Below, piece by piece: positions 1 through 1,832 of a DNA stretch of 5,114 bases. The translations under genes and the position numbers were made by a program. The notes under the pieces are model-generated. The model did not search any database, was not told the DNA's origin, and was given only the letters and a program-made list of their open reading frames with translations. The DNA comes from Desulfuromonadaceae bacterium (GTDB lineage: Bacteria; Desulfobacterota; Desulfuromonadia; Desulfuromonadales; SZUA-401). The stretch is taken from assembly GCA_003246035.1 (NCBI GenBank), contig QKBP01000048.1, positions 1 to 5,114 on the forward strand. Direction: 5' to 3'. Every line of letters starts with the position of its first letter. Within the stretch, counting starts at the first letter, position 1.

Positions 1-1642
1 ACGGCTTGCCTTGCTCACCGCGACGGACCCTGAAGAAGGCGATCGTCTGCTGTAGCTGCTCGGACTGGGAGTTGAGCTCCTCGGCGGTGGAGGCCATCTC
101 CTCAGCAGCTGCAGCGTTCTGCTGGATCACCCCATCGAGCTGCTGGATCGCTTTGGCGATCTGGTCGGCCCCGGCGTCCTGCTCGCGGCTGGAAGCGGTG
201 ATCTCCTGCACCAGCTCGGCGGTTTTCTGGATGTTCGGCACCAGGTTCTCGATCAGGCGCCCGGCCTCCATGGCCACCCCGACGCTCGAGACCGACAGGT
301 CGTTGATCTCTCCTGCCGCGGACTGGCTCCGCTCGGCGAGCTTGCGGACCTCGGCGGCGACCACCGCGAAGCCCTTCCCCTGCTCACCGGCGCGGGCCGC
401 CTCGATAGCTGCATTGAGGGCGAGCAGGTTGGTCTGGCGGGCAATCTCCTCGATAATGATGATCTTCTCGGCGATCATCTGCATGGCGTGTACCGTCTCG
501 GTGACCGCCTTGCCGCTCTCCTGCGCATCCTTGGCCGACTGGCTGGCGATCCGCTCCGTCGAGATGGCGTTGTCGGCGTTCTGGCGGATATTCGCAGTCA
601 TCTCCTCGACCGACGCCGAGGCCTCTTCGACCGACGAAGCCTGTTCGGTCGCCCCCTGAGACATCTGCTCCGAGGAGGCGCTCAAGGCCATGCTCCCCGA
701 AGTAACGTTCTCGGCCGAGACCTGGGCTTCGAGGACAATCTCCTCGATGCGCGCGACCATCTGCGCCAGGGAGCGCATAAAGGTGTCCTTCTGCGAACGG
801 GGGCTCAACTGCACGGTCAGGTCCCCCTGGGCCATGCGCTCGGCCATCTCGACCACCTGCTGCTGCGATTCGACCATCGACTGCATCGAGGCGAGGAGCT
901 GTCCGGTCTCGTCCCTGCCGGCAGACGGGATCGCGACCGTGGTGTCACCGATGGCCAGGCCGTCCGCCACTTCGACCGCGGCCTTGATGGGCCGGGAGAT
1001 GCTGCGGGCGATGGTGTAGGCCAGCGCCCCGAGCACCATTAGCAGGATCGCGCAGGTCACCATGAAGACCACCGCCGAGTCGTAGAAGTCGCTGTCGACG
1101 TCGTCGATGTAAATCCCCGAACCGATCACCCAGCCCCAGGGCTGGAAGCTCTTGACGAAGGAGAGCTTGGGGTACTGCTTGCTGCTGCCGTTCTTGTTCC
1201 ACATGTAGTCGACGAACCCTTCGCCGTTGCGCTTGACAGCGTCGACCATCTCGACAAACAGACGCTTGCCGTTGGGGTCCTTGACATCCGCCAGCGACTC
1301 CCCCTCGAGATTGCTGTTGTTGGGGTGCATGATCATGACCGGCTGCATGTCGTTGATCCAGAAGTACTCGTTGCCACCGTAACGCAGCGAGCGCAGGGTC
1401 GCGATGGCTTGTTCCTGGGCCTCGCCGACGGAGAGATCCCCCCGGCTGGCAAGCCCGTGGAAATATTCGACCACCCCGAGTGCCGTATCGACGACGTGGC
1501 GGGTTTTGACCTGGCGATCGGCGAGCATGGTCCCCTTGTTCTTGAAGAGGGAAAAGCCGGCTAGTGCCGCCACGGCCAGCAGCGACAGGGCGACCAGCAG
1601 GGTGAGCTTGTGTGAAATCTTGACATCCTTGAGCGATACCAT
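1..1642 (-). CDS. Methyl-accepting chemotaxis protein with single Cache sensor (3' end cut by window edge)
   Basis: Membrane chemoreceptor: the periplasmic domain senses a small ligand and the cytoplasmic hairpin controls CheA through CheW. 547 residues are visible and no stop is reached, so only a short C-terminal tail should be missing. Seen in order: short cytoplasmic N-terminus; TM1 about 13-33; periplasmic single Cache domain about 36-185, with YFWIND (93-98), MHPN (105-108), GFVDYMW (142-148) and PWGWVIGSGIYIDDVD (168-183); TM2 about 189-211; HAMP about 212-262; a second HAMP-like segment about 263-310 (MAQGDLTVQLS); signalling domain with hairpin tip EEIARQTNLLALNAAIEAAR (398-417). Glu-rich candidate methylation helices lie at 335-350 and 509-523. 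The Cache domain has no CXXCH, so it is not a heme-c sensor. The ATG at 1642 follows GAGGAG (1655-1650) with 7-nt spacing. The ligand cannot be told; short carboxylates are common for this Cache type. No che genes are nearby. A GEMM-I riboswitch and terminator precede the gene. Confidence 0.96.
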   Translation of the reverse strand, partial: MVSLKDVKISHKLTLLVALSLLAVAALAGFSLFKNKGTMLADRQVKTRHVVDTALGVVEYFHGLASRGDLSVGEAQEQAIATLRSLRYGGNEYFWINDMQPVMIMHPNNSNLEGESLADVKDPNGKRLFVEMVDAVKRNGEGFVDYMWNKNGSSKQYPKLSFVKSFQPWGWVIGSGIYIDDVDSDFYDSAVVFMVTCAILLMVLGALAYTIARSISRPIKAAVEVADGLAIGDTTVAIPSAGRDETGQLLASMQSMVESQQQVVEMAERMAQGDLTVQLSPRSQKDTFMRSLAQMVARIEEIVLEAQVSAENVTSGSMALSASSEQMSQGATEQASSVEEASASVEEMTANIRQNADNAISTERIASQSAKDAQESGKAVTETVHAMQMIAEKIIIIEEIARQTNLLALNAAIEAARAGEQGKGFAVVAAEVRKLAERSQSAAGEINDLSVSSVGVAMEAGRLIENLVPNIQKTAELVQEITASSREQDAGADQIAKAIQQLDGVIQQNAAAAEEMASTAEELNSQSEQLQQTIAFFRVRRGEQGKP

Positions 1643-1649
1643 CGTGAAT

Positions 1650-1655
1650 CTCCTC
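1650..1655 (-). promoter_or_regulatory. Ribosome binding site of the chemoreceptor gene
   Basis: GAGGAG lies 7 nt before the ATG at 1642. It sits 4 nt beyond the terminator T-run (AAAC between them) and outside the terminator stem, so the riboswitch should act mainly by stopping transcription, not by hiding this site. Confidence 0.85.
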
Positions 1656-1659
1656 GTTT

Positions 1660-1691
1660 AAAAAAAGGCCCGTCTCGTTTCGAGGCGGGCC
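1660..1691 (-). terminator. Intrinsic terminator in the chemoreceptor leader (riboswitch expression platform)
   Basis: On the minus strand the 5' arm GGCCCGCCTCG (1691-1681), loop AAA (1680-1678) and 3' arm CGAGACGGGCC (1677-1667) form an 11-bp stem with a single G-U wobble, followed at once by seven T (1666-1660). The structure ends 17 nt before the MCP start codon. It therefore sits in the leader of the gene and not behind an upstream gene, which points to regulated termination under control of the GEMM-I aptamer just upstream. On the plus strand the stem is preceded by the A-run and followed by CGGCTC, so it works as a terminator only on the minus strand. Confidence 0.93.
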
Positions 1692-1693
1692 GG

Positions 1694-1716
1694 CTCTCTT
1701 ATCTCTAGGATGAGAG
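1694..1716 (-). other. Linker hairpin between riboswitch aptamer and terminator
   Basis: CTCTC (1716-1712) can pair with GAGAG (1698-1694) around a 13-nt loop, or TCTC (1715-1712) with the internal GAGA (1705-1702). These alternatives lie between aptamer helix P1 and the terminator. The outer stem would bring the aptamer P2 3' strand close to the terminator 5' arm, as an antiterminator needs. The function is inferred; the pairing is seen. Confidence 0.5.
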
Positions 1717-1717
1717 T

Positions 1718-1796
1718 ATCTTCGGTGGCCCGGCGATCTCCGCTGAGACCCGTAGCTTTGCGTCACCGGATCACTCCGGCTTTGCCTTTTCGTGAT
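1718..1796 (-). promoter_or_regulatory. GEMM-I cyclic dinucleotide riboswitch aptamer (c-di-GMP-I class)
   Basis: The minus strand carries the GEMM-I core: GGCAAAGCC, a GNRA-capped stem, ACGCAAAGC, then TACGGGTCT. P1: ATC and CG (1796-1791) pair with CG and GAT (1724-1718) around a small A/AA internal loop. P1b: GC (1785-1784) pairs with GC (1761-1760), then CCGGA with TCCGG, capped by the GTGA tetraloop (1774-1771). P2: GC and CGG pair with CCG and GC, then GTCT with AGAT, loop CAGCGG. The A that stacks between the two ligand bases (A47 in Vc2) is in CGCAAAGC at about 1759. The base matching Vc2 G20 reads as G (1786), which favours c-di-GMP over cGAMP, although the P1-P1b joint is one base shorter than in Vc2. 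GEMM-I RNAs are known before motility and chemotaxis genes. The RNA starts about one base upstream if the promoter call is right, and a terminator follows. Confidence 0.93.
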
Positions 1797-1803
1797 GGCG
1801 CAA

Positions 1804-1832
1804 AAAATACCCAAACAGTTATCTCCTGTCAA
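1804..1832 (-). promoter_or_regulatory. Sigma70-type promoter of the riboswitch-chemoreceptor transcript
   Basis: A perfect -35 TTGACA (1832-1827) and a -10 TATTTT (1809-1804, 4 of 6 consensus bases) are separated by exactly 17 bp. Transcription should start near 1797-1798, directly before the first base of aptamer helix P1 at 1796. The sequence further upstream (about 1840-1875) is rich in A and T tracts and could act as an UP element. The agreement between predicted start site and aptamer edge is the strongest support. No FliA-type or sigma54-type promoter was recognised. Confidence 0.8.

Follow-up and report, generated by a model that had tools for sequence, protein, structure and literature searches.

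A c-di-GMP-I riboswitch that probably attenuates transcription of one sCache_2 chemoreceptor gene, most likely switching it off

A gap of 338 bases separates a methylase gene from a chemoreceptor gene in the 5,114-nucleotide stretch of Desulfuromonadaceae DNA analysed here (the window, from contig QKBP01000048.1), which raises the question of whether an RNA made from this gap lets a cyclic dinucleotide set the amount of that one receptor and, if so, in which direction. We think it probable that this single sCache_2 chemoreceptor is regulated at the level of transcription by a c-di-GMP-I riboswitch of the attenuating kind, and OFF is its most likely direction.

The chemoreceptor gene and its leader

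The receptor gene (2-1642, minus strand) has 547 codons inside the window and its 3′ end beyond it. Its sCache_2 sensor and MCPsignal domains lie above their cut-offs, as does HAMP (34.3 against 25), which identifies the product as a methyl-accepting chemotaxis protein (MCP). On the same strand lie a TP_methylase gene (1981-2826), which we take to be RsmI-like, a NAD synthase gene (2830-4821) and a UPF0102 protein gene (4846-5112) cut at the window edge. The long frames that stay open on the plus strand at 1936-2823 and 3046-4467, across from the methylase and NAD synthase genes, are probably by-products of GC-rich codon use, and an IRES_Hsp70 Rfam match at 2021-2228 (plus strand) was rejected as chance at 20.5 bits against a cut-off of 80. 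Identity to genomes of the searched class reaches 58% for the methylase and 68% for NAD synthase, and among 277 genomes of the class no close relative of the window was seen, the best-scoring NadE match among those listed (E 1e-270 or better) being 68% identical. At rsmI-like loci nadE adjoins in 29 of 30 cases, one of them recognised by 28 residues where the contig ends, and an MCP gene stands beside the rsmI-like gene in none of the 30, several of which end at contig edges.

The intergenic stretch contains the whole regulatory leader on the minus strand, running from promoter through inferred start, aptamer, linker and terminator to GAGGAG and ATG, an order and a strand that a sequence-only reading of this DNA had proposed correctly. 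The consensus promoter that it had claimed is present as a sigma-70-like TTGACA-17-TATTTT (1832-1804, minus strand) with 10 of 12 consensus matches; two promoter-like sites with at least 9 matches occur in the window, where 50 whole-window shuffles average 0.3 (sd 0.5). We infer a transcription start near 1797, and since the 5′ strand of P1 begins at 1796, the further claim that start site and aptamer onset coincide is borne out on paper. For comparison we collected 167 aptamers, the one in the window included, by means of a model trained on 34 of them; 164 are distinct. Promoter-like pairs are enriched upstream of first-in-line aptamers (83 of 142, against 48.9 ± 5.5 in single-base shuffles), and a fixed promoter offset was not found in the relatives' leaders, 10 standing at the offset of the window against 8.6 ± 3.6 when shuffled.

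The aptamer (1796-1718, minus strand) belongs to the c-di-GMP-I (GEMM-I) class, as the same reading had stated; it passes the covariance-model check with RF01051 that was named there, scoring 59.4 bits where the gathering score is 35 (E 5.1e-9, 72,838 bases searched). Our own model R1 gives it 85.5 bits, with this aptamer among the training rows. The fold is the three-way junction of the class: P1 pairs 1796-1791 with 1724-1718 (these pairs were checked), J1/2 is AAAAG at 1790-1786, P2 occupies 1785-1760 with a GUGA loop of the GNRA type at 1774-1771, and P3 follows after 1759. Residues corresponding to G20, A47 and C92 are present at 1786, 1759 and 1725 (Vc2 numbering, transferred by alignment to the Vc2 sequence with the help of PMC9049102 and PMC6274999). 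As we read it, J1/2 is one base shorter than in the RF03167 consensus, which is not peculiar to the window since several of the collected aptamers look alike.

A linker of 26 nt with a weak CUCUC/GAGAG hairpin (1717-1692, minus strand) leads to the intrinsic terminator (1691-1660, minus strand), a GC-rich hairpin of sequence GGCCCGCCUCG-AAA-CGAGACGGGCC-U7 with a C-A mismatch in its stem (1691-1667), U7 at 1666-1660 and a folding energy of -16.7 kcal/mol. No other hairpin on the two strands of the window reaches -12 kcal/mol and runs directly into at least six T, and of 300 dinucleotide-shuffled versions of the 338-base stretch one contained a comparable terminator, which bears out the strong terminator of the sequence-only reading. 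A simpler scan listed three terminator-like sites in the window against 3.5 expected and missed this hairpin, presumably because of the C-A mismatch. Behind it stands GAGGAG (1655-1650, minus strand), 7 nt ahead of the ATG at 1642-1640, so that the proposed ribosome binding site of the receptor gene is likewise in place. The aptamer family, the terminator, the ribosome binding site and the target gene are thus read directly from the DNA, and transcription attenuation is the natural reading of a leader so arranged.

Direction of the switch and a candidate antiterminator

Aptamer and terminator share no strand in this leader and can coexist. The same holds widely in the comparison set, where a terminator was found within 130 nt in 129 of 164 leaders and starts at least 5 nt past the end of the aptamer model in 128 of the 129. 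In print two plans are distinguished: in pilM of Geobacter the aptamer and terminator folds are mutually exclusive, whereas in Cd1 of Clostridioides difficile they can coexist and the switch is OFF (PMC9262584). As the terminator of the window is separate from the aptamer and compatible with it, as in Cd1 and unlike pilM, we judge it likely that c-di-GMP switches the receptor off. Cd1, in the flgB leader, further resembles the window in its c-di-GMP-I aptamer and motility target (PMC9262584, PMC6366702), and differs in its antiterminator, which is the P1 3′ strand (A) as described there, while the candidate here is the 3′ strand of P3. Of the features that mark the Cd1 plan, then, the window has the separate terminator, beyond its 26-nt linker, and lacks the pairing of the P1 3′ strand.

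That pairing is frequent elsewhere. The P1 3′ strand fits the 5′ arm or loop of the terminator with at least seven contiguous pairs, G-U allowed, in 71 of 129 leaders, or 66 of the 123 with distinct arms, counts that treat as separate some leaders that are not independent, namely those in tandem or from a shared genome. The mean z of this match is -2.4, and 63% of leaders reach p ≤0.05 against shuffled arms; the 5′ arm often holds the complement of the P1 3′ strand, CCGAAG with CUUCGG. On these matches the Cd1-like OFF plan looks common in this group, though the switch studied in Geobacter, pilM, is ON. In the window the match between the P1 3′ strand and the 5′ arm is missing (-2.7 kcal/mol, p 0.44).

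We propose a model in which the 3′ strand of P3 takes this part. At low c-di-GMP the strand CGGGCC (1732-1727, minus strand) of the unliganded aptamer would pair with the 5′ arm of the terminator (1691-1686) as it emerges, and this pairing would delay the terminator long enough for the chemoreceptor gene to be transcribed. When c-di-GMP holds the aptamer, the same strand would be locked in P3, leaving the terminator to form. Of the single contiguous helices listed, the pairing of 1732-1727 with 1691-1686 is the strongest, at -11.8 against -11.4 for the outer six pairs of the terminator, and as a duplex it has -14.4 kcal/mol with p 0.02 against shuffled arms, uncorrected for the five strands tried. 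The presence of a six-pair P3 match says little by itself, since 78 of 129 leaders have one (G-U allowed) and the mean z is only -0.5 overall. Nor are P3-strand antiterminators as a general class clearly enriched in the 57 distinct leaders that lack a P1 match, the window included: 9% of these have a P3 match at p 0.05 and 25% at p 0.1, compared with 5% and 11% of the other 66 distinct leaders. In our judgement the OFF direction stands better than this specific antiterminator, which we put forward tentatively and with rather more doubt than confidence.

Folding along the transcript, with the start set at 1797 and the aptamer either free or forced, is consistent with such a model for a short stretch of transcription. 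When the 3′ end stands at 1685, the P3-terminator helix forms with a probability of 0.71 if the aptamer is free and 0 if it is forced, and for 3′ ends from 1685 to 1672 the probability ranges from 0.08 to 0.71, a misfold of the P2 3′ strand with the P3 3′ strand competing at up to 0.52. Forcing the aptamer costs 9.3-10.2 kcal/mol over this range, a price that could be roughly payable by a ligand with an affinity of about 1 nM, the figure given in PMC3627812. From 1667 onwards the terminator wins both ways (0.89-0.96 free, 0.996-0.998 with the aptamer). Since it wins in both states once its 3′ arm is out, antitermination without ligand can only be kinetic, as antitermination in Cd1 is likewise described to be (PMC9262584).

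The opposite direction, in which c-di-GMP relieves termination by the same riboswitch, we regard as unlikely. It draws on the ON behaviour of the pilM cGAMP switch of Geobacter (PMC9262584), on Bc1, which activated a reporter in B. subtilis (PMC11218506), and on the caution that direction is not to be extrapolated across species (PMC6366702). The terminator here, however, shares no strand with the aptamer, and a folded aptamer leaves just the linker to pair with the terminator 5′ arm, at -5.8 kcal/mol (p 0.12) against -16.7 for the terminator itself. Less likely again is a constitutive attenuator or decaying riboswitch, whose terminator would fire whatever the ligand state. That it wins at equilibrium in both states, that the window is without a P1-type antiterminator and that Bc1 is described as giving no response to c-di-GMP (PMC11218506) all speak for such a reading; against it stand a score far above the cut-off and an aptamer core unimpaired at the pocket positions inspected.

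The ligand pocket and the compared aptamers

In the class-I aptamer G20, A47 and C92 are the ligand contacts (PMC9049102), and the cGAMP aptamer has an A (A14) in place of G20 (PMC6274999). The pocket of the window, G20, G21-C46, A47 and C92, is canonical for c-di-GMP, and for this reason c-di-GMP is the better guess than cGAMP and most likely the dinucleotide that this aptamer would sense. The A at position 20 that marks GEMM-Ib is replaced by G at 1786. Sensing of 3′,3′-cGAMP in the manner of GEMM-Ib, or of both dinucleotides, is improbable, even with cGAMP switches described as frequent in Geobacter (PMC6456294) and A20 present in 27 of the 164 compared aptamers: the window has G20 and G21-C46, the cGAMP aptamer has A14 at the first of these positions, and the reported cGAMP binder derived from a class-I aptamer is a G20A mutant (PMC6274999). 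The two Geobacter leaders, pilM and GSU1761 (GEMM-Ib), as described, share with the window the aptamer architecture, transcription control and probably the same broad bacterial group, and differ from it in the A at position 20, the cGAMP ligand and the ON direction.

The compared loci were drawn by similarity to the leader of the window or by top RF03167 score, and the pocket counts are therefore not population frequencies. With that reading, 104 of the 164 distinct aptamers have the set found in the window, and the remainder comprise the 27 with A20, 17 with G20 and C21-G46, 11 with U92 and 5 others; A47 is invariant (164 of 164). The 17 that keep G20 and swap the pair 21-46 to C-G include L116, L118, L120, L122 and L123; the swapped pair is a feature of cGAMP aptamers. 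Among 126 distinct rows 97.4% of cells pair, changes on both sides occur in 13 of 19 pairs against 7.4 ± 1.2 in shuffles, and pairing falls to about 43% when the partner is slid by one base, figures biased towards the structure, since the model itself guided the alignment.

A c-di-GMP-I-GGC variant with another ligand can be given next to no chance, and we reject membership of RF03167, the family listed when an E-value threshold replaces the cut-offs, since the aptamer scores 55.8 bits, below that family's own cut-off of 59, and has A47 (1759) where the consensus has G. RF03167 has matches over its cut-off in 111 of 136 genomes of the order of genome G059, and 25 aptamers are assigned to it over the cut-off; the G of its consensus at position 47 occurs in 0 of 164 distinct aptamers. 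This family may over-call canonical GEMM-I RNAs in this order.

Chemoreceptors under GEMM-I leaders

The sequence-only reading took the link of this riboswitch class to motility genes as known, and it is in print: c-di-GMP riboswitches precede motility and chemotaxis genes, from which the name GEMM derives, and in B. anthracis one precedes a putative MCP gene (PMC6366702). Bc1, which precedes mcpE in the Bacillus cereus group, resembles the window in that an MCP gene has a leader with a c-di-GMP-I aptamer and intrinsic termination; it differs in its two terminators, where the window has one, its long platform, its unrelated host and its lack of response to c-di-GMP (PMC11218506). That lack of response counts against our reading. 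The arrangement of a GEMM-I aptamer and a chemoreceptor is thus already published for Bacillus, and the window is a well-formed, canonical case, ordinary in kind. For Desulfuromonas soudanensis 16 GEMM riboswitches and 15 MCPs are reported, the passages of PMC4914508 that give these numbers stating no link between them. Among the matches listed, literature titles and abstract openings announce no MCP leader from this group, most subscription journals lying outside the coverage.

An automatic rule assigned a downstream frame to 160 of the 164 aptamers, some surely wrongly, and 140 of these frames are distinct. Six encode MCPs: the window and L235, L196, L205, L252 and L278. In the five relatives MCPsignal is confirmed by Pfam, the order is likewise aptamer, terminator, MCP, and the predicted MCP starts lie 49-209 nt after the nearest aptamer, the start at L252 being probably mispredicted because it lies inside its terminator. 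At L205 two GEMM-I aptamers stand in tandem ahead of the gene. The sensor regions are unlike that of the window, led by dCache_1, a weak 4HB, PDC or nothing over the cut-off and in no case by sCache_2, and the pocket carries A20 at L196 and L278 and G20 at the other three. A Pfam tally took in 133 frames out of the 140, after removal of seven that were duplicates, overlaps or fragments, and each was first cut to 330 residues; owing to that cut MCP domains are absent from the tally and were shown in a separate Pfam run. Repeats typical of adhesin-like proteins are the commonest domains among these 133 target frames: Ig-like, fn3, PKD and cadherin-like, at 9 to 13 frames each with overlap.

Homologues of the sensor domain occur in 90 of 136 genomes of the order, and from these we took 30 loci, one per genome, leaving out further matches such as a second one in G146. 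None of the 30 has a GEMM-I aptamer within the sequence examined, which at L149, L156, L167 and L175 at least covers about 105-300 bases upstream, and this result counts against our reading. We rejected these homologues as orthologues, the best identity being 50% among the 80 loci kept and 51% in the order. At L186 (2-2392, minus strand) an sCache_2-HAMP-PAS-GGDEF-EAL protein stands under an A20 GEMM-I aptamer, its sensor 34% identical to the sCache_2 of the window, and a feedback between the cyclic dinucleotide and its own enzyme is possible there.

The MCPs of the five relatives have sensors unlike that of the window, and their leaders mix G20 and A20; chemoreceptors thus seem to have been placed behind GEMM-I leaders on more than one occasion, a lead that comes from few cases. 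A fuller form of this idea, in which the order recruits chemoreceptors repeatedly and independently under G20 and A20 leaders, two messengers would choose which receptors are displayed, and the P3 antiterminator of the window replaces P1, we consider doubtful.

The finding leaves knowledge of riboswitches as such unchanged. It adds a well-formed case that lends itself to testing, from what is probably a Desulfuromonas- or Geobacter-like group, and the compared leaders hint at more than one origin of such wiring. If the proposed model is true, a second messenger would tune the dose of one chemoreceptor, and a cell turning sessile would stop making that sensor.
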